Part shown: positions 18,105-26,462 of the stretch, in pieces
Position numbering within the stretch: position 1 is the first letter of the stretch
Layout: each line of letters begins with the position of its first letter
DNA from: a virus
Length of the DNA stretch: 37,475 nucleotides
Virus record (IMG/VR): IMGVR_UViG_3300033153_005764
Coordinates: 1 to 37,475 of that record
Strand: one strand, 5' to 3'
Made by a program: the position numbers and the translations under genes
Notes under the pieces: model-generated
Told to the model about the DNA's origin: nothing
Seen by the model: only the letters and a program-made list of their open reading frames with translations
The model's database searches: none

Positions 18105-18118
18105 TTTAATCTCCGTAT

Positions 18119-18191
18119 AGGGGTGGGAGGACTCGAACCTCCACTGAATTCAGGTTGTCCCTGCTGCCTCTACCTATTGGGCTACACCCCT
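18119..18191 (-). tRNA. tRNA with irregular anticodon arm (isotype unclear)
   Basis: The minus strand gives 73 nt with a perfect 7-bp acceptor stem (AGGGGTG / CACCCCT), TA at positions 8-9, a D arm GCCC...AGGC with the usual GGTA loop, and a perfect T arm (GGAGG-TTCGAGT-CCTCC). No CCA is encoded. The anticodon arm is the problem: at standard positions the stem does not pair. The best local pairing is CAGG/CCTG around a 5-base GACAA loop, without the normal U33. I therefore give no amino acid. It is either an unusual functional tRNA, a degraded one or a decoy. It lies between the HTH gene and the DUF6899-like gene. Confidence 0.65.
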
Positions 18192-18429: not shown

Positions 18430-18458
18430 AGTATACGACATTTTTCGGCAAAAAGCAA
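18430..18458 (-). promoter_or_regulatory. RTRTCG-class promoter PB (leftward)
   Basis: Minus strand TTGCTT (18458-18453), 17-base spacer ending ATGTCG, then TATACT (18435-18430). The -35 box sits just past the stop of the 100-aa gene at 18467. It drives the HTH gene, tRNA and probably the polymerase operon. Confidence 0.75.
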
Positions 18459-18466
18459 GAGAAAAA

Positions 18467-18769
18467 TCAAAGACTTTCGTATTTTGTATAAAATTCTACT
18501 AACTGTTGCCCGGCTAATTGTATATGTTCAACAGCATCAAAGTGTCTAAGGACTGTCAGAATAATTTCCATTTCCTCAAGAAGAAACATAAGGCTACGGG
18601 GATCATCGGATAAAATACATCGACTTATTAATTCTCGATTACTCGAAGCAAATTGACCATACGCTTTTTTAGTTTCTTCCGTATTTAGTTCGCCCTGCCA
18701 TTTTACTTGTGCTGCCATGGAGGCAGTGTGATAATCCTTCAACAATTGTTGTGTGGATTCAGAAGCCAT
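18467..18769 (-). CDS. Hypothetical helical protein
   Basis: 100 residues, predicted almost entirely helical: STQQLLKDYHTASMAAQVKW, then a charged middle and MFLLEEMEIILTVLRHFD, with HIQLAGQQLVEFYTKY at the end. No motif or family is recognised. It begins six bases after the stop of the zinc-ribbon gene and is the last gene of the cluster driven by promoter PC; the next promoter starts nine bases downstream of its stop. Confidence 0.7.
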   Translation of the reverse strand: MASESTQQLLKDYHTASMAAQVKWQGELNTEETKKAYGQFASSNRELISRCILSDDPRSLMFLLEEMEIILTVLRHFDAVEHIQLAGQQLVEFYTKYESL

Positions 18770-18775
18770 TATATC

Positions 18776-19069
18776 TTACTTTGAATTTAAATATCCTGCA
18801 TTAGTCGGAATTTTAAAACGTGTTGGTTCAATTGTTCGGGTATGATGGCAGACTGGGCATGTATTTCTTATTTGGGGAGCAAGTATCTCAAAATCCTCAA
18901 ACGGATCGCCCGTATTCAGACCATTAGTGGTATCAACTAGATTCCACCACGCAACCTTGCCCTTACAGTGCGGACACGTAACTACCGCACTAAATTCATA
19001 TTCGTAACAATCCATTTGAAAATAATGCCCGTGTTCACAAAGTAACTGATAGTATCCGCTGTAGCTCAT
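18776..19069 (-). CDS. Zinc-ribbon protein
   Basis: 97 residues. Metal-ligand candidates are CEHGH near residue 11, CPHC near 32-35 and CPVCHH near 71-76, sufficient for one or two zinc sites. The spacer is polar with several aromatic residues. The start overlaps the upstream stop by ATGA. It follows a SprT-like protease and another small gene, so it may be a partner in nucleic-acid handling, but no family name can be given. Confidence 0.7.
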   Translation of the reverse strand: MSYSGYYQLLCEHGHYFQMDCYEYEFSAVVTCPHCKGKVAWWNLVDTTNGLNTGDPFEDFEILAPQIRNTCPVCHHTRTIEPTRFKIPTNAGYLNSK

Positions 19070-19272
19070 TTCTTTTCTTCCACAGCATCCGCAGCATCAT
19101 TGAGGGCTTGGGCGACACGACGGGCTTTCAATGGGGAAAGCCGTGCTAATGCAGTATCATAAATACGGGCCTCTACAAATAAATAAATTTCTTGAAATTC
19201 GGGTTGTGCGATAATATTAACCTCAGTATTCTTATATCCCTGAACCTTTTTCGACCTAAATTGCTTGCTCAT
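19066..19272 (-). CDS. Hypothetical small protein
   Basis: 68 residues joined by ATGA overlaps to genes on both sides. The N-terminus is basic (SKQFRSKKVQGYKN), the middle beta-like (EVNIIAQPEFQEIYLFVE) and the C-terminus a helix ending ALNDAADAVEEKK. No motif recognised. The tight coupling indicates it is made in step with the SprT-like protein. Confidence 0.65.
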   Translation of the reverse strand: MSKQFRSKKVQGYKNTEVNIIAQPEFQEIYLFVEARIYDTALARLSPLKARRVAQALNDAADAVEEKK

Positions 19273-19853
19273 TTCTTTACCTCCGTCTCCCGGAAAGCGA
19301 CTTTATGCACGGGACATATCGGAGCACCGGCTTCAGTTAACCATTTTCGCGTTACTCGTGCAATGTACTCACACTTTGGACATTGTACTTTAATCAATCG
19401 GCTACCCTTCTGTCCCGATTTCCGTTTCTTTAATCCGAGCTTTGCATGGGGATAGGGTCCGAGCTTCTCTTGTATTACTGCTAGCTTTGCGGCTAGTTCC
19501 TCGTTTGCACGAGAACCCGTCCACGGTTTCACCATACCCACCGCTCGCATAATTTCAATGAACGGCTTTCGATGCCCCGCCTCAATTCCGGCAATCGTAT
19601 GGCAAAGTTCGTGCACAATTATCTCAAGAATCTTCAAAGAATCAGAGAATTTCGGCGAAACAAAAATCTCATATGTTTTATCCTCCGAGCGTTTAGAATT
19701 AAAACATTCGGCTCCGGTTTTATCCCGCTTCGTTGTCGGCCAGCCGCAACCAATACGAAATCGCGGAAGTTCGTAACCAGCGGGTTTGAATATCGACTGT
19801 TCAATTTGTTTAGCCGCTGCCAAGAACCAGGGTTCTCTTGTTTCATGTTTCAT
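19269..19853 (-). CDS. SprT-like zinc metalloprotease
   Basis: 194 residues from the ATG at 19853, an ATGA overlap with the previous stop. IIVHELCHTIAGIEAGH contains the HExxH zinc site (HELCH) and a downstream His. A C-terminal zinc ribbon follows: CPKCEYIARVTRKW and CPVHK. This is the SprT/Spartan-like layout, whose members cut DNA-protein crosslinks in eukaryotes and are of unclear role in bacteria and phage. An early phage copy could clear proteins bound to DNA before replication. Length and domain order are normal. Confidence 0.88.
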   Translation of the reverse strand: MKHETREPWFLAAAKQIEQSIFKPAGYELPRFRIGCGWPTTKRDKTGAECFNSKRSEDKTYEIFVSPKFSDSLKILEIIVHELCHTIAGIEAGHRKPFIEIMRAVGMVKPWTGSRANEELAAKLAVIQEKLGPYPHAKLGLKKRKSGQKGSRLIKVQCPKCEYIARVTRKWLTEAGAPICPVHKVAFRETEVKK

Positions 19854-20191
19854 CGTAGCACCATTGAGAGCCACACTTCGACCTGCAAAGTTCCCTTATC
19901 ATGGTGGAGGAACGCATTGTAACATCCGCCCTCCCGATTCGAGTTTATCCGACATTCCTGTAATTGTTCGATGAACGAGTCCAGAGCTTCGCGATCCCGT
20001 ATACCGACAGTCTCGGAGGGATTCTCGGTTAGAGCCTCGAAGGGCTTTTCAACTGGTAGGGCCAGGGCCTTCCGTTTACGCTTTGGACCTTTACCCGGCT
20101 TGAAAATAAATTCGTATCCACAATTACAAGTTTTTGTTCGCGGCCCCACTTCTGCATGACATTCGGGGCAAGTCTTATGGCCTCTCGACAT
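19850..20191 (-). CDS. Zinc-ribbon early protein
   Basis: 113 residues from the ATG at 20191, with AGGGAG upstream and promoter PC about 22 bases away. The N-terminus HKTCPECHAEVGPRTKTCNC carries CxxC and CxC ligands, a widespread phage ribbon pattern. A basic Lys/Arg block (KGPKRKRKA) follows, then a region ending in WLSMVLR. It is the first gene of the SprT cluster. DNA or RNA binding is likely from the ribbon and basic segment; no specific function is known to me. Confidence 0.75.
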   Translation of the reverse strand: MSRGHKTCPECHAEVGPRTKTCNCGYEFIFKPGKGPKRKRKALALPVEKPFEALTENPSETVGIRDREALDSFIEQLQECRINSNREGGCYNAFLHHDKGTLQVEVWLSMVLR

Positions 20192-20213
20192 TTTATTTTC
20201 TCCCTTCACTTGT

Positions 20214-20242
20214 AGTATACGATATAAATACAAGCAAAGCAA
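20214..20242 (-). promoter_or_regulatory. RTRTCG-class promoter PC (leftward)
   Basis: Minus strand TTGCTT (20242-20237), 17-base spacer ending ATATCG, then TATACT (20219-20214). It lies directly after the 3' end of the tRNA-like RNA and in front of the zinc-ribbon/SprT cluster. Confidence 0.8.
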
Positions 20243-20255
20243 ATCTTTTCTCAAA

Positions 20256-20366
20256 GCGGCGTATCAGGAATCGAACCTGACTTCGGCATTCGCCCATTCC
20301 GGGGTCCGTTGAGAACACTATTCTCGCCCGGATGGTCCAGCCACGCTTCGCCGTGGCCACCGCCGC
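20256..20366 (-). ncRNA. 111-nt tRNA-like structured RNA
   Basis: The two ends pair as an acceptor-like stem (GCGGCG with CGCCGC, six bp, then a mismatch). A D-like hairpin (GCCA / TGGC, 10-base loop) and a perfect T arm (TCAGG-TTCGATT-CCTGA) are in the right order and orientation for a minus-strand tRNA. The middle is about 55 nt instead of about 22: it forms a long helix CCATCCGGG with CCCGG-A-ATGG (one bulged A) enclosing a second hairpin GAGAA/TTCTC, then a small GGC/GCC hairpin. No normal anticodon loop can be placed. It may be a tRNA carrying an insertion, a decoy or another tRNA-shaped RNA. It sits between the gene at 20378-20560 and promoter PC. Confidence 0.5.
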
Positions 20367-20377
20367 ATTATTCTATT

Positions 20378-20560
20378 TTACCACGAATCATCTAGTTTGT
20401 CAAGGATTTTTTTCGCACATCTTTCGCAGACATACGCCGAAAACGCCGGACCATCGAGATTCGCATAAGTCAGGGGCCGATATGTACTTCCACATACTGA
20501 ACATCGGCCGTCAAGGACTATTGTTCTCCCGAAATAACCTCGGAGTCTCTTGAGTTTCAT
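20378..20560 (-). CDS. 60-aa double-CxxC protein
   Basis: 60 residues from the ATG at 20560, an ATGA overlap with the previous gene and AGGTGG upstream. RCSVCGS at about residue 19 and VCERCAKK at about 43 supply four cysteines for one zinc site. The C-terminus KKILDKLDDSW is a charged helix. Only a dozen bases separate its stop from the tRNA-like RNA. The family is unknown to me. Confidence 0.7.
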   Translation of the reverse strand: MKLKRLRGYFGRTIVLDGRCSVCGSTYRPLTYANLDGPAFSAYVCERCAKKILDKLDDSW

Positions 20561-20814
20561 GTTTTTTCCACCTGTTTGAACGTCGGGCAATTGTTCTCAA
20601 TTACAAAAGCATCGAACATTTGACTACGTTCCGATTGACAAAATATCGCATGTACCAGCGACTGATTACTGATCCCCAGGGGTACAGCATTGCCCCACCA
20701 CTGGGCATTTATGCCATCGACATAATAGCCGCCGCATTCCCCGCATGGGCAATCCCGTTTATCGCCGTTTAGGCTGAATACATGGCCGCAATTTTTACAG
20801 AATAAGAGCTTCAT
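20557..20814 (-). CDS. Conserved phage CxxC protein (MKLLFC type)
   Basis: 85 residues from the ATG at 20814. MKLLFCKNCGHVFSLNGDK, CPCGECGGYYVD and WWGNAVPLGISNQS form a pattern that I recall from many unnamed phage proteins: a CxxCGxVFSL zinc half-site, a CxCG half-site, then a conserved AVPLG segment. The function of the group is unknown. The leader carries a strong 16-bp hairpin between this start and the previous stop, so expression may be tuned separately from the gene before it. Confidence 0.78.
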   Translation of the reverse strand: MKLLFCKNCGHVFSLNGDKRDCPCGECGGYYVDGINAQWWGNAVPLGISNQSLVHAIFCQSERSQMFDAFVIENNCPTFKQVEKT

Positions 20815-20825
20815 TCTATTTCTTT

Positions 20826-20894
20826 CTGCCAAGGGCGATGCTGGTAGACAGCGGGACAATAATTAGGCCCCTATTACCGCCTACCAGCATCTTG
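20826..20894 (-). promoter_or_regulatory. Intergenic 16-bp hairpin
   Basis: An 11-bp perfect inverted repeat (GATGCTGGTAG at 20835-20845, CTACCAGCATC at 20879-20889) is extended by GCCAA/TTGGC beyond a 4-base bulge. It lies in the leader between the genes at 20907-21086 and 20557-20814. No U-run follows in the minus-strand RNA, so a classical terminator is unlikely; a processing or translation-control hairpin is more probable. Confidence 0.6.
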
Positions 20895-20906
20895 GCGGCG
20901 ACGGCG

Positions 20907-21086
20907 TTATCGAGCTTTATAGACGTTTAAACCGATCCGTGCGTCTGCATGGCCGGGAACAATCTGATTGCCTCCCGTAGTGGCGATTACAATCGTCTTT
21001 CCCGACTTCGACGGACCCTGTTCCTTCGACAGATCAACCGTGATCGTCAGGATTTCGTCCTTCACTGTCAACTCTACGTTTTTCAT
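20907..21086 (-). CDS. Conserved small phage protein
   Basis: 59 residues from the ATG at 21086, preceded by GGAAGG. The sequence NVELTVKDEILTITVDLSK, then SGKTIVIATTGGNQ and IGLNVYKAR is a compact beta-rich fold common among unnamed phage early proteins. No catalytic residue is evident. It is the first gene after promoter PD with a leader of about 15 bases, so it should be expressed early and strongly. Confidence 0.75.
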   Translation of the reverse strand: MKNVELTVKDEILTITVDLSKEQGPSKSGKTIVIATTGGNQIVPGHADARIGLNVYKAR

Positions 21087-21107
21087 TGTTGCTTCCTTCC
21101 TATCTAT

Positions 21108-21136
21108 AATATACGACACTTTCCGATGAAAAGCAA
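21108..21136 (-). promoter_or_regulatory. RTRTCG-class promoter PD (leftward)
   Basis: Minus strand TTGCTT (21136-21131), 17-base spacer ending GTGTCG, then TATATT (21113-21108). The -35 box lies 17 bases beyond the stop of the preceding gene at 21153. Confidence 0.75.
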
Positions 21137-21152
21137 ATCGAATTTCAGATTT

Positions 21153-21515
21153 TTATGCGATCTTCCGAAACGCTCCAACATAGACCTGAAATTGACCGAT
21201 GCCGGTCAACGCAAAGCCGTGATCCGGGTGTACCCGGAGATAGGCTAGCAATTGTTCGCGGAACTGATCCACTGTCAAGGCCAATTCGCCCACTTGACCA
21301 AAGCCGGATGAATCAACGAACCACGACTTATCTGTCGGTTCCCAATCCGGGGATAGAGTACAGTCGATCAAACTTGGGAAGGGGAAATTTCCTTCGCCGG
21401 TCTCCAAGCCCGCCACTTCCTCCGTACCGAACACGAACGGCTCGACAATTTCCTCAACGCCAAGATGTTCAGCCAGGTACTTATCTTCGAGTTGTGCTCC
21501 ACGTTCGCGGTCCAT
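21153..21515 (-). CDS. Hypothetical protein
   Basis: 120 residues from the ATG at 21515 with TTGGAGG upstream. The N-terminal 30 residues are a charged helix (DRERGAQLEDKYLAEHLG); the remainder is mixed, with PDWEPTDKSWFVDSSGFGQ and a helix VDQFREQLLAYLRVHPDH, ending in beta-like GIGQFQVYVGAFRK. No family recognised. It is the last gene of the cluster driven by promoter PE. Confidence 0.7.
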   Translation of the reverse strand: MDRERGAQLEDKYLAEHLGVEEIVEPFVFGTEEVAGLETGEGNFPFPSLIDCTLSPDWEPTDKSWFVDSSGFGQVGELALTVDQFREQLLAYLRVHPDHGFALTGIGQFQVYVGAFRKIA

Positions 21516-21545
21516 TATTCTGCCTCCAAAATTAGACGCCAAACT

Positions 21546-21695
21546 CTAATTACTGCTCATCGCCGCTTTTCTTGCCCGTTCTTTCAGCGTTTCGAGTCTA
21601 CGCTTGTGGGAATATCCCGCCTCATGTCGTTTCTGATTACCACAACGAATCTTCAAGCCGCACTTCTCACAACGCTTGTATTTCGATTTTGGCAT
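21546..21695 (-). CDS. 49-aa C2H2-type zinc-finger-like protein
   Basis: A short gene preceded by AGGGAGAATAGAACA. The 49 residues include RCEKCGLKIRC, then GNQKRHEAGYSHKRR, placing C9, C12, H24 and H30 in a C-x2-C-x11-H-x5-H arrangement close to a C2H2 finger. The remainder is a basic helix (RRLETLKERARKAA). C2H2-like fingers are uncommon in phage but do occur. The basic tail suggests nucleic-acid binding. Confidence 0.65.
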   Translation of the reverse strand: MPKSKYKRCEKCGLKIRCGNQKRHEAGYSHKRRLETLKERARKAAMSSN

Positions 21696-21699
21696 TGTT

Positions 21700-21948
21700 C
21701 TATTCTCCCTGTTGGTCCAATAGTTCGACTAATTCCTCAAGGTCTGTAACGAGCAATACATGCCCGCACCAACTGCACTGATACCTAATAATTTCCGTAT
21801 CATCGTTTAGTGTCGGCCCGTATTCGCAATCGACTATTCCATTGTTCCCGACAACTAGATTACTGATCTCCGTTGTAGCCGTACCTCTGGTAATCTCATC
21901 AAGTTGGTGTTTTCCGCACCTTGGGCATGTAAATTCTACCGTTCTCAT
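21700..21948 (-). CDS. Zinc-ribbon small protein
   Basis: 82 residues from the ATG at 21948, which has GGAAGG upstream and the AGAACA spacer seen in neighbouring genes. FTCPRCGKHQ near residue 8 and YQCSWCGHVL near 58 make a full four-Cys ribbon. The C-terminus is an acidic helix (LEELVELLDQQGE). It starts within the last residues of the preceding gene. The role is unknown. Confidence 0.75.
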   Translation of the reverse strand: MRTVEFTCPRCGKHQLDEITRGTATTEISNLVVGNNGIVDCEYGPTLNDDTEIIRYQCSWCGHVLLVTDLEELVELLDQQGE

Positions 21949-21952
21949 TGTT

Positions 21953-22135
21953 CTACCTTCCATTATACCGTATAAACGACCATCTATCCTCGCACGATGA
22001 AATAAACGCCCACGGCGGGCAATGTCCCCATCGGCCTATAATCCACTTTCGACACTGCCGATAAGGTCGCCAATCGGTCATAACTGAATACGTCTCGCCC
22101 CTGTTTTTGGTCCACACGCGATATTTCCGGGCCAT
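21953..22135 (-). CDS. 60-aa Trp/Arg-rich protein
   Basis: 60 residues starting at 22135 with GGAAGG upstream and promoter PE 20 bases further. It has seven Trp and many Arg residues (ARKYRVWTKNRGETY, RKWIIGRWGHCPPWAF), with two or three Cys. The composition is unusual even for small early proteins. No family recognised. A nucleic-acid or protein-inhibitor role is possible but not shown. Confidence 0.7.
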   Translation of the reverse strand: MARKYRVWTKNRGETYSVMTDWRPYRQCRKWIIGRWGHCPPWAFISSCEDRWSFIRYNGR

Positions 22136-22155
22136 TGTTCTATCCTTCCACCTGT

Positions 22156-22184
22156 AGTCTACGATATAAATTGAACCTTGTCAA
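22156..22184 (-). promoter_or_regulatory. RTRTCG-class promoter PE (leftward)
   Basis: Minus strand TTGACA (22184-22179), 17-base spacer ending ATATCG, then TAGACT (22161-22156). The -35 box overlaps the TGA stop of the gene at 22181-22483. Confidence 0.78.
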
Positions 22185-22483
22185 GTCAAATCCATATCAC
22201 AACCGCATTTGTTGCAGATGGGATTTCCACATTCTGCTATCTTCGCGTAGGACCGGCGGACGTTCCAACCGCACTCCGGGCAATTCCAGATTCGATACAT
22301 CACTGTCTGATCCATACGGGTACTTTCCGCCTCAAGAGCCGCTGCCAAAGCCAGTGCTTCGCCCCGGTCAAGATATAGAGTTACTTGAACAGCACTATCC
22401 TTATTCTTGGCAAGAATTCGGACTTCCTCGCTGGGCCACAATCTTCCAACGTCAACCGTCCCGTACCGTAATTCAAGTTTCAT
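22181..22483 (-). CDS. Zinc-binding small protein
   Basis: 100 residues from the ATG at 22483. The N-terminal 60 residues look like an alpha/beta domain (KLELRYGTVDVGRLWP, VQVTLYLDRGEALALAAALE). The C-terminus has CPECGW and PICNKCGC ligands. The protein at 25745-25909 shares the C-terminal layout (CPECDW, then AECG, PVCEKC), so the two may be related. The stop is embedded in the -35 box of promoter PE. Confidence 0.72.
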   Translation of the reverse strand: MKLELRYGTVDVGRLWPSEEVRILAKNKDSAVQVTLYLDRGEALALAAALEAESTRMDQTVMYRIWNCPECGWNVRRSYAKIAECGNPICNKCGCDMDLT

Positions 22484-22490
22484 CGGTCTA

Positions 22491-22547
22491 TCATTCTGCC
22501 TTGGGGAAAATCTCCAGAATCTTCTTGTATGCTTTATCAAAGGTCAT
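22491..22547 (-). pseudogene. 18-aa truncated copy of the MTFDEAY gene
   Basis: The ORF reads MTFDKAYKKILEIFPKAE and stops. It matches the first 17 residues of the 47-aa gene at 22990-23133 (MTFDEAYDKILKIFPHA) at 13 positions, so it is a paralogue cut short after the first helix. It retains a GGAGAATAAAATA leader and a TAATG overlap with the upstream stop, so it may still be translated. A broken copy is the simpler reading; a functional short version is possible. Confidence 0.6.
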
Positions 22548-22732
22548 TATTTTATTCTCCATGATGCTTCTAGGAACGGTAACAGAGTTTTCAAGTATTC
22601 CAATGCTGATTCTAATGTATTGTAACATTGTGTTCCAGCATTCGACTGCACGATCCAATAGAATCGACTATCTATTTGTCGTTGCCGATATTCGATTGTA
22701 ACAGCAAATTTCGTTTCTAACGGGGCCAACAT
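22547..22732 (-). CDS. Hypothetical small protein
   Basis: 61 residues from the ATG at 22732 with GGAGGACAG upstream. The sequence is beta-alpha in style: KFAVTIEYRQRQ, FYWIVQSNAGTQC, then a helix LESALEYLKTLLPFLEASW. It could be a single small alpha/beta unit. No family known. Its TAA shares a base with the ATG of the truncated MTFDKAY ORF. Confidence 0.7.
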   Translation of the reverse strand: MLAPLETKFAVTIEYRQRQIDSRFYWIVQSNAGTQCYNTLESALEYLKTLLPFLEASWRIK

Positions 22733-22773
22733 TTTTCTGTCCTCCGACCATTTCCGTGGCATCGCGGATATGG

Positions 22774-22947
22774 TCAATTTTCAGCTTCGGCAATTGCCTT
22801 ACGAGCGGCGGTACAATCGTCTAAACAACGTGCTTGTATAAAATCACTACAAACAAAATCCTTTGGTAGAGTCGCCGGGTGTTCTGGTAGTGATGTCGGG
22901 TGCTCTACCCAATAAAGCATCACTTTACATGCTTCTAACAGAGTCAT
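22774..22947 (-). CDS. Hypothetical small protein with cysteines
   Basis: 57 residues from the ATG at 22947 with GGAGGATAG upstream. It starts MTLLEACKVMLYWVEHP and ends LDDCTAARKAIAEAEN, with four Cys in all but not in CxxC pairs. Mostly helical. No family recognised. It lies between the intact and the truncated MTFDEAY paralogues. Confidence 0.68.
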   Translation of the reverse strand: MTLLEACKVMLYWVEHPTSLPEHPATLPKDFVCSDFIQARCLDDCTAARKAIAEAEN

Positions 22948-22989
22948 TATTCTATCCTCCAACCATTTTGCGTACGTCCGCAATATGGT

Positions 22990-23133
22990 CTATTCCTCCG
23001 GTAAATCGACCACATTTTCATGGTCGTCTAGGGTGCAGTCGGTGTAGATAATCAACTGCCCACAAGTTTCCTCATTGCAGGTTGCATGGGGGAAGATTTT
23101 CAGAATCTTATCATATGCTTCGTCAAAGGTCAT
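22990..23133 (-). CDS. 47-aa MTFDEAY phage protein
   Basis: 47 residues from the ATG at 23133, just after AAGGAGAACGGAACA; promoter PF lies 23 bases upstream. The sequence MTFDEAYDKILKIFPHAT, then EETCGQLIIYTDCT and an acidic tail follow a plan I recall from many phage genomes: a helix starting TFDEAY, FP.A, then GQLVIYT. The function of that group is unknown. It is the first gene of its cluster and has a truncated paralogue 440 bases downstream. Confidence 0.75.
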   Translation of the reverse strand: MTFDEAYDKILKIFPHATCNEETCGQLIIYTDCTLDDHENVVDLPEE

Positions 23134-23156
23134 TGTTCCGTTCTCCTTCTATTTAC

Positions 23157-23185
23157 AGTATACGATATAAATCCACCAAAAGCAA
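23157..23185 (-). promoter_or_regulatory. RTRTCG-class promoter PF (leftward)
   Basis: Minus strand TTGCTT (23185-23180), 17-base spacer ending ATATCG, then TATACT (23162-23157). Upstream of the -35 box is a 7-bp inverted repeat, AAATCTA (23184-23190) and TAGATTT (23194-23200), which could be an operator. Confidence 0.8.
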
Positions 23186-23198
23186 ATCTATTTTAGAT

Positions 23199-23471
23199 TT
23201 ATCTCCCTACTCGCCGGTCAATATCCTCAACTGTATACTGATCCCTATTCAGTCCCGGGCCGGGCAAAGTCTTGGCTCGAACCTGATAGGCATTGCCTAT
23301 AAGCCGGTCCAGGTAGGCATCCCGCCGGGCTTCAGATAAAAAAACGGGATAAGGAACGTGTCGTCTACCCATGCGGCGGTTTTGTTCCCGTAAACGAGCT
23401 AGGGCGAATGCCTCGCACTCTCGATCCCGTCTCTGCTGTTCTCTGTCCAGAAAAATTCTATTCCGAGCCAT
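23199..23471 (-). CDS. Arg-rich helical protein
   Basis: 90 residues from the ATG at 23471 with GGAGAA upstream. Nearly a quarter of the residues are Arg (DREQQRRDRECEAF, LREQNRRMGRRHVP), with a charged-helix character and a C-terminal VEDIDRRVGR. Likely a nucleic-acid-binding protein from charge alone. No family is recognised. It is the second gene of the cluster starting at 23662. Confidence 0.7.
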   Translation of the reverse strand: MARNRIFLDREQQRRDRECEAFALARLREQNRRMGRRHVPYPVFLSEARRDAYLDRLIGNAYQVRAKTLPGPGLNRDQYTVEDIDRRVGR

Positions 23472-23476
23472 GAGAA

Positions 23477-23662
23477 TTATTCTCCATCGGGCCAGTGCAA
23501 CGGCTGAATCGTCCCGTTCCGAAATACCCGGATTTCCATAGGCTTGACTGATTCACGTTTTGCCTTTTGTCGTTGTCGGTACGCTTTACTTGCCCGACGA
23601 CGTGCTTCACGTCCCTTGGCGGAACGGTTATACTTCAGTTGTGCTAGTTGCCTTTTATTCAT
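23477..23662 (-). CDS. 61-aa Lys/Arg-rich protein
   Basis: 61 residues beginning MNKRQLAQLKYNRSAKGREA, then RRRASKAYRQRQKAKRES and a short beta-like end (MEIRVFRNGTIQPLHW). The first 40 residues form a very basic helix that could bind nucleic acid. The ATG at 23662 is only eight bases after the -10 box of promoter PG, so the transcript would be nearly leaderless, and no Shine-Dalgarno site would be included. Confidence 0.7.
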   Translation of the reverse strand: MNKRQLAQLKYNRSAKGREARRRASKAYRQRQKAKRESVKPMEIRVFRNGTIQPLHWPDGE

Positions 23663-23670
23663 CTATTCCC

Positions 23671-23699
23671 ATTGTACGATATAAAATCGGTTTTGTCAA
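23671..23699 (-). promoter_or_regulatory. RTRTCG-class promoter PG (leftward)
   Basis: Minus strand TTGACA (23699-23694), 17-base spacer ending ATATCG, then TACAAT (23676-23671). It reads out of the long non-coding block into the gene at 23662. Confidence 0.8.
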
Positions 23700-23716
23700 G
23701 AGAGAATCTATGATTG

Positions 23717-23781
23717 TCTATTACGGTCTATCACGCGAAAACGGGGCAAAAACCGTCATAGACCGTAATAGATTTTGCCCC
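23717..23781 (+). repeat. Interleaved inverted repeats (pseudoknot order)
   Basis: A 15-bp perfect inverted repeat, TCTATTACGGTCTAT (23717-23731) with ATAGACCGTAATAGA (23758-23772), interleaves with a 9-bp pair, GGGGCAAAA (23743-23751) with TTTTGCCCC (23773-23781). The order A-B-A'-B' is that of an H-type pseudoknot if transcribed; only one of the two could form as a simple hairpin. No gene covers it. Confidence 0.75.
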
Positions 23782-24022
23782 AAACACGACCACAATGATA
23801 CATCTACCCAACGTAAAATAAGGACTTACGATCCGATAATAAAATCAGACGCCATAGTTATATCCTTGTCCCACCAGTATTTCCAAAGTTCAGAGCCAAT
23901 AGAAGTAACATTTGGCTCTGTTATATCTATACCCCATAAGTACTTAGCCCATTTGGTCGCGTACTGGGGGGGGCCTACTCCTGCTGTATACGAAAGCACG
24001 AGTATAAACTAAACCATTTAGA

Positions 24023-24118
24023 TTCTATACTTCTATACTTTTATACTTTTATACATTCTATGCTATCTATACGTCTATCTGTACTATCTATATTATCTGT
24101 ATTATCTGTATTATCTTT
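24023..24118 (+). repeat. AT-rich tandem short repeats
   Basis: Five 8-base units in tandem (TTCTATAC twice, TTTTATAC twice, ATTCTATG) run from 24023 to 24062, and 9-base ATTATCTGT units recur at 24092, 24101 and, altered, 24110. The whole tract is about three quarters A+T. It could be a DNA-unwinding element. Confidence 0.6.
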
Positions 24119-24387
24119 TCTAGTTATACCGATTGTAATATTACTTCAATTTTATTGCATGTTTTCCAGCTTTCAAATCGTTGCCCCATATCTTCATTTA
24201 TCTATCGACCAATATCTAAACAAGTATAGAATATAGATAGAGTTATAGCGGCCCCGATATAATAGTACATCAGAGCCAATATGGGTTATCGGACGTACTT
24301 CATGGCCACTATGATACAAGAATCTAAACGGAGTTCTATACAACTCGATCCAGAATCAAGACCTACAAAACGGTCCCGATAAATACT

Positions 24388-24434
24388 TGCCCCGTAAAGA
24401 GTTCGGGATAATCTATACAACTCTCTACGGGGCA
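24388..24434 (+). repeat. 16-bp near-perfect inverted repeat
   Basis: TGCCCCGTAAAGAGTT (24388-24403) pairs with AACTCTCTACGGGGCA (24419-24434) at 15 of 16 positions around a 15-base loop. No U-run follows on either strand, so it is not a standard terminator. A related motif, CTATACAACTC, occurs in its loop/right arm and again near 24336-24346. Confidence 0.65.
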
Positions 24435-24478
24435 TACAGATAACAGAGCCAAATCATACAGTATCGTCGATCAACGCA

Positions 24479-24556
24479 TCAACGATATGCCGACCAGTAA
24501 GCAACGACTTCCCAATATCCTACCCGATACATTGTGCGTGTTAGTGCCTTGGGCAT
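24479..24556 (-). CDS. 25-aa ORF, possibly truncated
   Basis: Reads MPKALTRTMYRVGYWEVVAY then WSAYR and stops. The ATG at 24556 has AAGGGAGAAAAATA directly upstream, the same start cassette as its neighbours, which argues for translation. YRVGYWE resembles the first strand of small phage YRVTY-type proteins, so this may be the N-terminal remnant of a longer one. It is the last ORF before the non-coding block. Confidence 0.45.
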   Translation of the reverse strand: MPKALTRTMYRVGYWEVVAYWSAYR

Positions 24557-24572
24557 TATTTTTCTCCCTTGT

Positions 24573-24782
24573 CTAGTCGTCCCACGAATATAAAGCCGGA
24601 AAATACGTTTTGTAATAACAGTTCCCGACATCGTTGTCGGCTTGAATCGCCTTGTCCGGGAAATCTCTGACGTATTGCGGATGCAATAACTGATTCCGGA
24701 TGCTGGTACGGTGTCCCGGTTTTCCGGCGGCTTTCCATGCCCGATCTCGATTTTGTCGATTCATAAAAGTCGGTGCAAACAT
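24573..24782 (-). CDS. Conserved small phage protein (YSWDD end)
   Basis: 69 residues from the ATG at 24782, preceded by GGAAGGGAG. NRQNRDRAWKAAGKPGHRTS, then IRNQLLHPQYVRDFPD and a Tyr-rich end YYKTYFPALYSWDD form a pattern I have seen in unnamed phage proteins. The role is unknown; the basic N-terminal helix may bind nucleic acid. An overlapping ORF shifted by one frame (24556-24738) is a shadow. Confidence 0.75.
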   Translation of the reverse strand: MFAPTFMNRQNRDRAWKAAGKPGHRTSIRNQLLHPQYVRDFPDKAIQADNDVGNCYYKTYFPALYSWDD

Positions 24783-24798
24783 TGTTTTTTCTCCCTTC

Positions 24799-24861
24799 CT
24801 ATATTAGCATCATACAATACGCCAGTATGATGTACCATAACATTCGAGTTATTTTTTTCAT
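24799..24861 (-). CDS. 20-aa membrane peptide
   Basis: The ORF is MKKITRMLWYIILAYCMMLI. It begins by an ATGA overlap with the preceding 21-aa ORF, has a basic start and one hydrophobic span, and stops just before the Shine-Dalgarno site of the next gene. No promoter or separate ribosome site is seen, so it would rely on coupling. Very small; translation is plausible, not proven. Confidence 0.5.
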   Translation of the reverse strand: MKKITRMLWYIILAYCMMLI

Positions 24862-24923
24862 GCTGATAGCCATGCTAAGAATCCGCCAATGATTATCCCG
24901 ACCAGACAGTAAATATACCACAT
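24858..24923 (-). CDS. 21-aa membrane peptide
   Basis: The 21-residue ORF reads MWYIYCLVGIIIGG then FLAWLSA: one transmembrane helix with a Gly-containing centre and almost no soluble part. AAGGGAG lies about 10 bases before the ATG at 24923, inside the end of the preceding gene, and the stop is coupled to a second membrane peptide. Its position in a tight chain of small genes supports it being real. Confidence 0.55.
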   Translation of the reverse strand: MWYIYCLVGIIIGGFLAWLSA

Positions 24924-24927
24924 GATT

Positions 24928-25086
24928 CTAATCTCCCTTCCGATAGGTTGACCGAGAAGTCAACGGGCCAGACGATGTACTGACAGGCTCGTATCCGGCA
25001 TTCTCCAGCATTGCCTTGCGTATTTCAGCCCGACGGATACTTCTCTCCGATCGCCAATCGACCGTGATGTACTCAAGTTTTTTCAT
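24928..25086 (-). CDS. 52-aa early protein
   Basis: 52 residues from the ATG at 25086, preceded by TAGGGAGATCGGGACG. It reads MKKLEYITVDWRSERSIRR, then EIRKAMLENAGYEPV and a Ser/Thr-rich tail. The middle is a basic amphipathic helix. Not a known family to me. Its last codons carry the ribosome site for the 21-aa membrane peptide, which starts four bases after its stop. Confidence 0.6.
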   Translation of the reverse strand: MKKLEYITVDWRSERSIRRAEIRKAMLENAGYEPVSTSSGPLTSRSTYRKGD

Positions 25087-25145
25087 CGTCCCGATCTCCC
25101 TAGGGGCGTCCTTGCCCTTGCCAACTCGTCCATGCTATCGGCGGA

Positions 25146-25463
25146 TTAGTCTTGCACGTAATCCGGTGTCAACTCCGCCCGGAGTAACTCGTAGCCGATG
25201 TATGAGGCATGTTCAAGACTCATTGCCGGCATCAAGTCCTTATTGAACCGGGTTATCGCTTTACGAATGGCGTTCGCCGATCCTTGCCACGACCGTATCG
25301 GTTCATTGTCGCTTGACCGCATAAGGTCCGCCCGGACTTCGACGATTGTTCCGGCGATACCCTTATGAACCGATTCTTTGGCGATGCGATGAATGATAAC
25401 GTAAACGCCGCTATCGTCCAACTCGCACTCCACGTCTTGAACATGTTCGATTTCCCATGCCAT
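25146..25463 (-). CDS. Hypothetical alpha/beta protein
   Basis: 105 residues from the ATG at 25463, preceded by CAGGAGAATAGGATT. The first 50 residues look beta-rich and acidic (IEHVQDVECELDDSGVYVII, then GIAGTIVEVRADL); the rest is helical (SANAIRKAITRFNKD, EHASYIGYELLRAEL). No motif identified. The start cassette is nearly identical to that of the next gene upstream, at 25664. Confidence 0.7.
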   Translation of the reverse strand: MAWEIEHVQDVECELDDSGVYVIIHRIAKESVHKGIAGTIVEVRADLMRSSDNEPIRSWQGSANAIRKAITRFNKDLMPAMSLEHASYIGYELLRAELTPDYVQD

Positions 25464-25484
25464 AATCCTATTCTCCTGTTAGCC

Positions 25485-25664
25485 TTATTCTTTTGCCACA
25501 AGAACGCACCATGATTGCCGGCTATTATCGCCCCTATTGTCGGTATCTATCTTGGCGATATATGTAATGCCGGGATCGCAGTTTGTCTCTAGTAAATATA
25601 CGTGGCGGATTCTCTTTGCTCTTTGTTTGGAAACTCCAAAAGCGATAACGGTTAGTTTTGCCAT
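25485..25664 (-). CDS. 59-aa small protein
   Basis: I take the ATG at 25664, which follows AAGGGAGAATAGGATT, the same cassette as at 25463. An in-frame ATG at 25745 would add 27 basic residues and couple by TAATG to the preceding stop, but has no ribosome site of its own. The protein reads AKLTVIAFGVSKQRAKRIRH, then TNCDPGITYIAKIDTD and SRQSWCVLVAKE, alternating beta strands and a basic helix. Family unknown. Confidence 0.68.
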   Translation of the reverse strand: MAKLTVIAFGVSKQRAKRIRHVYLLETNCDPGITYIAKIDTDNRGDNSRQSWCVLVAKE

Positions 25665-25744
25665 AATCCTATTCTCCCTTCTAATAGGTTCTCTCATAGC
25701 GTCAACCGTTGCCCAACCTTCATTACGTCGCGGTCGCTTAGCCA

Positions 25745-25909
25745 TTATTCATTCCCTTCGTAGGTTCGTAGTGCATCGTCAAGAACCATATCGGACGAGC
25801 ATTTTTCACATACTGGTCCGCCACATTCGGCAAGGTCCAGATAGGACCAACCGATTGTCCAATCACACTCTGGACAATCCCATCGAAGTTTTGTATCAAC
25901 TTCCATCAT
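25745..25909 (-). CDS. 54-aa zinc-binding protein
   Basis: 54 residues from the first of two tandem ATGs (25909, 25906), with GAAGGGAGAAC upstream. WDCPECDWTIGW, AECGGPVCEKC provide at least four ligands. The same arrangement, CPECGW then AECGNPICNKC, ends the protein at 22181-22483, so the two share a zinc module. It is the first gene after promoter PI. Confidence 0.7.
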   Translation of the reverse strand: MMEVDTKLRWDCPECDWTIGWSYLDLAECGGPVCEKCSSDMVLDDALRTYEGNE

Positions 25910-25926
25910 GTTCTCCCTTCTCTAGT

Positions 25927-25955
25927 ACCATACGATACAATCGACGCCAAGGCAA
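25927..25955 (-). promoter_or_regulatory. RTRTCG-class promoter PI (leftward)
   Basis: Minus strand TTGCCT (25955-25950), 17-base spacer ending GTATCG, then TATGGT (25932-25927). The -35 box overlaps a 7-bp palindrome, GGCAAAT-CT-ATTTGCC (25951-25966), a possible operator that also spans the stop of the upstream 30-aa gene. Confidence 0.7.
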
Positions 25956-25957
25956 AT

Positions 25958-26050
25958 CTATTTGCCCAACTCTTTGCCTTTATGGTGCGGTCGCTTGTGT
26001 GCTTTGCGGATTGCTTCTAATGCTTCCTCATTTATCGGTCTAGTTTTCAT
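25958..26050 (-). CDS. 30-aa basic peptide
   Basis: The ORF is MKTRPINEEALEAIRKAH followed by KRPHHKGKELGK. The ATG at 26050 is preceded by GACAAGAACA and lies about 30 bases from the predicted start of promoter PJ. A short helix followed by a His/Lys tail; no family. As the first leftward gene after the divergent control region it would be among the earliest transcripts. Its small size keeps confidence moderate. Confidence 0.5.
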   Translation of the reverse strand: MKTRPINEEALEAIRKAHKRPHHKGKELGK

Positions 26051-26084
26051 TGTTCTTGTCCTTATTCTGTCCCGTTCTACTCGT

Positions 26085-26113
26085 ACCATACGACATTATT
26101 TCCCATGATGCAA
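26085..26113 (-). promoter_or_regulatory. RTRTCG-class promoter PJ (leftward, outermost)
   Basis: Minus strand TTGCAT (26113-26108), 17-base spacer ending ATGTCG, then TATGGT (26090-26085). It is the first leftward promoter beside the divergent region. Confidence 0.7.
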
Positions 26114-26433: not shown

Positions 26434-26462
26434 TTGACACGGCCCCTCGGATATGGTATAAT
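26434..26462 (+). promoter_or_regulatory. Consensus sigma70-type promoter PR (rightward, late operon)
   Basis: TTGACA (26434-26439) and TATAAT (26457-26462) are separated by exactly 17 bases: a perfect consensus. Predicted start near 26469 gives a leader of about 18 bases to the GTG at 26487. It heads the rightward structural operon and lacks the RTRTCG box. Confidence 0.85.

Follow-up and report, generated by a model that had tools for sequence, protein, structure and literature searches.

Predicted promoters with a variant extended −10 element ahead of the small-gene cassettes of an uncultured phage

Organization of the locus

The window analysed is the whole of IMG/VR virus record IMGVR_UViG_3300033153_005764 (37,475 bases), from an uncultured phage. 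Among its leftward genes are those for a family-A DNA polymerase, a D5-type primase, a Sak4-like annealing protein, a PD-(D/E)XK exonuclease and an RNA ligase, and a terminase, an SU10-type portal and endonuclease VII are among the products of the rightward genes. Between the polymerase gene and the divergent structural promoter PR lies an accessory region of small leftward genes, which gave no match to phage records by megablast; the eight promoters described below are all located there (Table 1).

Several other features were recorded in the window. The tRNA-Cys has an unusual anticodon call, ACA. The structured RNA downstream of promoter PA (20252-20368; L095:1290-1427, both minus strand) has a tRNA-like acceptor and T-arm (GCGGCG...CGCCGC) and a fold z of −2.45, and was called by neither ARAGORN nor Rfam; an RNA in the related contig G007 (see below) has a nearly identical start, GCGGCGGTGGCYACGGC. 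At the edge of the non-coding block, directly ahead of the 23671 promoter, there is a long inverted repeat (TCTATTACGGTCTAT ... ATAGACCGTAATAGA).

Table 1. Coordinates of the predicted promoters and of neighbouring features in the window
Feature	Coordinates	Strand	−35, spacer, −10	Block before −10	Context
Promoter	18430..18458	−	TTGCTT-17-TATACT	ATGTCG	Precedes gene for 61-aa HTH_58-domain protein (HTH_58 E 7.6e-07)
Promoter	20214..20242	−	TTGCTT-17-TATACT	ATATCG	ATG at 20191
Promoter	21108..21136	−	TTGCTT-17-TATATT	GTGTCG	ATG at 21086
Promoter	22156..22184	−	TTGACA-17-TAGACT	ATATCG	ATG at 22135
Promoter	23157..23185	−	TTGCTT-17-TATACT	ATATCG	ATG at 23133
Promoter	23671..23699	−	TTGACA-17-TACAAT	ATATCG	ATG at 23662
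Promoter	25927..25955	−	TTGCCT-17-TATGGT	GTATCG	4/29 bases changed in L098
Promoter	26085..26113	−	TTGCAT-17-TATGGT	ATGTCG	Deleted in L098, with start of its gene
PR	26434..26462	+	TTGACA-17-TATAAT	ATATGG (canonical extended −10)	Drives rightward structural genes
PA	20375..20403	−	TTGACA-17-TAAAAT	CGTGG	Drives structured RNA
tRNA-Cys	18118-18191	−			
Structured RNA	20252-20368	−			Transcribed from PA
Inverted repeat	23717-23773				Upstream of 23671 promoter

Architecture of the promoter family

The pattern RTRTCGTANNNT occurs eight times in the window, on the minus strand only and within one 7.7-kb region; in 100 dinucleotide-preserving shuffles the mean count was 1.09 and the maximum 3. An initial annotation had described eight sites with a TTG −35 box, a 17-base spacer and a TAnnnT −10 box, all with RTRTCG. 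Every coordinate proved correct, and in 8/8 the spacer is of exactly 17 bases and ends in RTRTCG. The −35 box is TTGCTT in four copies, TTGACA in two, and TTGCCT and TTGCAT in one each. Among the 93 TTG-N16..18-TANNNT sites on both strands RTRTCG is found in eight, which are the family itself.

All eight sites have the elements of a sigma70-type promoter (a TTG-type −35 box, a spacer of 16-18 bases and a TAnnnT −10 box). A scan for generic σ70 promoters returned 45 promoter-like sites in the region against 44.2 expected, with no excess, and the case is therefore carried by the fixed block and the spacing and not by the hexamers alone. Seven of the eight promoters are followed shortly downstream by a Shine-Dalgarno sequence and a start codon, with a leader of about 11-35 bases. 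At the 23671 promoter the predicted +1 falls at the ATG or at most 2 bases from it, so the mRNA would be nearly leaderless.

Relation to the extended −10 element

RTRTCG occupies positions −18 to −13, directly over the extended −10 element (TRTGn), in which TRTG lies at −17 to −14 in Gram-positive bacteria (PMC2613000). T-17, R-16 and T-15 are present in all eight sites, and position −14 is C in all eight; because of this C in place of G, the sites are termed an extended −10 variant and not members of the class.

The block was said at first to be lacking from PR and PA. For PR that contrast comes down to one base: its ATATGG differs at −14 only (C/G). PA has CGTGG. G at −14 is also found at two sites of G007, the PR counterpart (+5622, block ATATGG) and a leftward promoter (−45625, block ATGTGG), and the block at the PR counterpart of L100 (+1071) is ATGTGG. 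In distant relatives RTRTGG was counted eight times at 17-base spacing, against eight summed over six control spacings.

Conservation in related phages

Two near-identical strains, L098 and L099, have structural genes almost the same as those of the window (their terminase genes differ at 0 and 1 of 1,726 bases), and both are missing a cassette near 25.46-25.74 kb. The changes in the L098 copy of the 25927 promoter include T-17→C and a −10 change from TATGGT to TATAGT; a stronger −10 box with a weaker extended element would fit compensating (mix-and-match) σ contacts, in this single case. The proposal that a real, conserved promoter family serves the small-gene clusters is supported. RTRTCG itself is not invariant between strains, being GCATCG at this L098 site.

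Of 2.9 million viral contigs scanned, seven matched the strict form TTGCTT-N11-RTRTCGTATACT. One was G007 (IMGVR_UViG_3300008517_000162), whose polymerase, at 60% identity, is the closest relative of the window's polymerase in the scanned collection; the other six had one site each and no polymerase match. Polymerase relatives were obtained from alignment-based scans, and a single-protein polymerase scan gave none. G007 is colinear with the window except in the small-gene region, in which the two have few genes in common, and its larger core genes show about 60-80% protein identity. In the G007 DNA polymerase (L097:9732-12515) an extra stretch of about 270 residues lies in frame; its ends are intein-like (it starts with CLAGHTRVVTDRG and ends with VHN before C), and the window polymerase lacks it.

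A weight matrix built from the window sites found four strong sites in G007 (2153, 3655, 2601 and 5288; PWM >17) and lower-scoring ones at positions 802 and 45625; 0/15 random sequences scored ≥15. All of these sites point leftward and lie within the small-gene region, ahead of mostly non-orthologous genes. Conservation in related phages had been proposed as a check on the family, and G007 has the boxes in the same region with mostly different genes behind them. Judged by sequence comparison, the promoter design is retained while the genes behind it change. All eight window sites have C-14, and so do the two G007 sites that score highest; the block has drifted to GTGTCT, GTGGCG, GTATTG and GCATCG among the G007 and L098 copies.

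Alternatively, a single promoter fragment may have been copied recently as cassettes duplicated, in which case the fixed block would reflect common ancestry and not selection. The 20214, 22156 and 23157 promoters do have ATTTATATCG in common beyond the core, and cassettes beside the promoters are gained and lost between strains. However, the −35 box, spacing, block and −10 box agree while the remaining spacer and the flanks are unrelated, and the same elements recur in G007 at about 60-80% core protein identity, so that recent duplication is very improbable.

The RTRTCG family was absent from the more distant polymerase and terminase relatives examined. Two related phages have comparable families in which the fixed block is RTGGTG instead: L207 has three TTGACN-N10-GTGGTG-TANACT promoters (spacer 16) at 1373, 2912 and 11453, and L018 two TTGCTT-N11-RTGGTG promoters (spacer 17) at 2967 and 8613. 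Across relatives RTRGTG was counted five times at 17-base spacing and 0 times in six control spacings. On these small numbers, multi-copy promoters that are specific to a lineage may be frequent in the phage group.

Occurrence of the block in bacterial chromosomes

When 257 Gb of bacterial genomes were scanned with the strict pattern, 29 matches were returned, against about 30 expected by chance (a back-of-envelope figure that takes base composition as even). Two of the 29, the only unusual-looking ones, were in Candidatus Poribacteria. In 85 Poribacteria genomes TTGCTT-N11-RTRTCG-TATANT gave 21 matches against 0 in the control; these were set aside as promoter evidence, being mostly one dispersed repeat together with a tRNA promoter (two genomes). 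The dispersed repeat (L265-L283) contains TTGCTTTT...RTATCGTATANT, and about 100 bases downstream of it are also similar.

Since the TTGCTT matches were mostly one repeat, the enrichment was retested with TTGAC −35 boxes. TTGAC-N12-RTRTCG-TANNNT gave 107 sites in Poribacteria, which may not be the phylum of the phage's host, against 11 in the reversed control. The 107 sites represent about 44-57 independent promoter families (clustered at ≤2 and ≤3 mismatches; ≤4 merges even shuffled spacers), and TATAAT is the −10 box in 58 of the 107. RTRTGG with TTGAC was counted several hundred times against 8 in the control, with 48 against 0 in one genome. In the phyla to which a Lachnospiraceae and a Lentisphaerae genome belong, RTRTCG was counted 13 times (control 6) and 3 times (control 2), respectively. 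At least one phylum, Poribacteria, thus uses both forms of the block in predicted promoters of its chromosomes, with little or no such use in two others.

The preference at −14 is C eight times and G once in the phage, and the reverse in Poribacteria. No relative of the phage terminase was found in Poribacteria genomes, in a search that had no positive control. The chromosomal evidence may therefore come from a clade other than that of the host.

Interpretation

We think it probable that the eight sites are early-type promoters for the host housekeeping (sigma70-type) polymerase, with a C-14 extended −10 element and one copy per cassette; host sigma recognition, the early timing, the positions of the transcript starts and what C-14 does are all inferred. 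The host housekeeping RNA polymerase would read the TTG −35 box, the 17-base spacer and the TAnnnT −10 box, and RTRTCG would be a Gram-positive-style TRTGn with C for G at −14. The block would supply double-stranded contacts for sigma regions 2.4/3, and these added contacts may let promoters with a weak −35 box (TTGCTT) or −10 box (TATGGT, TATACT) fire. A promoter copy ahead of every small-gene cassette would allow cassettes to be gained, lost or swapped without loss of expression, and the short leaders would put the ribosome-binding site near +1. No sigma70 region-2 domain was found in the window phage or in G007, and a phage σ factor was therefore rejected.

In E. coli, G-14 is the base that defines TGn, and C-14 removes that base. 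The phage preference for C-14, opposite to that of Poribacteria, could reflect selection for something besides strength. RTRTCG was first proposed to be a special contact or an operator half-site, and it might overlap or form an operator of a phage or host regulator, such as the 61-aa HTH_58 protein, with the eight promoters making up a coordinately repressed or activated regulon. The retention of C-14 in 8/8 window sites and the two strongest G007 sites, though G would be the better sigma contact, is in keeping with an operator, as is the position of the small HTH protein gene directly behind the 18430 copy. Against this, no consistent dyad or second half-site was seen: CGAT lies upstream in some copies at varying distance, and an operator half-site with CGAT as partner was rejected because the copies are few and the distances differ. 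Furthermore, G007, where the boxes are kept, yielded no homolog of the HTH protein, the block drifts in the G007 and L098 copies, and an unrelated phylum has RTRTCG in many of its chromosomal promoters. An operator is unlikely. The special role first given to the block is not borne out, as RTRTCG overlies the extended −10 element, the PR block has G-14 and both forms occur in the chromosomes of one phylum. Nothing was found that points to an operator or regulon specific to the phage, and a shared promoter class does not by itself make a regulon.

It is unlikely that C-14 marks a second promoter class, apart from the G-14 promoters PR and PA, by which a phage-modified polymerase or the small HTH regulator could switch the accessory region independently of the structural genes. 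Decidedly unlikely is a scheme in which C-14 promoters are read by another holoenzyme (a host group-2 sigma, or a phage-modified sigma as with T4 MotA/AsiA), RTRTGG promoters such as PR being left to the housekeeping sigma. There is a likeness between TTGCTT and the T4 MotA box core, (a/t)(a/t)TGCTT(t/c)a (PMC2988021), and positions −35, −14 and −8 tend to change together between the C-14 and G-14 sets. However, TTG is invariant and CTT variable (TTGACA twice, TTGCCT, TTGCAT), the pattern of a sigma region-4 contact; the box is at −35 spacing, about 2 bases off the MotA box; and neither the window phage nor G007 yielded a sigma domain. A search for the MotA protein gave no match, and its control was likewise empty. 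T4 middle (MotA-box) promoters were rejected as an identification, since CTT is missing in 4/8 copies and the box is at −35 spacing and not centred at −30.

A single promoter design is thus retained in the phage as the genes it precedes are replaced, which would make expression modular, and the design is linked to a promoter element in the chromosomes of at least one uncultured bacterial phylum. Should the block reflect a lineage-specific host-σ preference, multi-copy promoters could help to assign hosts to uncultured phages and could yield ready-made promoters for uncultured bacteria.

Comparison with known promoter systems

Extended −10 (TGn/TRTGn) sigma70/sigmaA promoters have the same T-17, R-16 and T-15 and identical placement before the −10 box, and the phage sites likewise pair a −35 box, a 17-base spacer and weak −35/−10 hexamers with the block (PMC2613000); unlike them, the window sites have C-14 and not G, and fixed G-13 and R-18. 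T4 early promoters are also multi-copy, over-specified strong host-sigma promoters spread across small early genes, with conserved bases beyond the −35 and −10 boxes (PMC2988021), but the block of the window family differs. In the PeSL promoter-terminator cassettes of T4-type phages, as summarized in PMC4503421 (Arbiol 2010; Comeau 2014), a repeated promoter precedes swappable small-gene cassettes, whereas the window promoters appear without an adjoining terminator stem-loop; no terminator-like minus-strand site in the window adjoins any of the eight. The SAS/ESAS of cluster K mycobacteriophages are short motifs that recur before many small phage genes (PMC12699233); SAS is GGGATAGGAGCCC beside start codons, in contrast to the window motif, which lies within a −35/−10 promoter.
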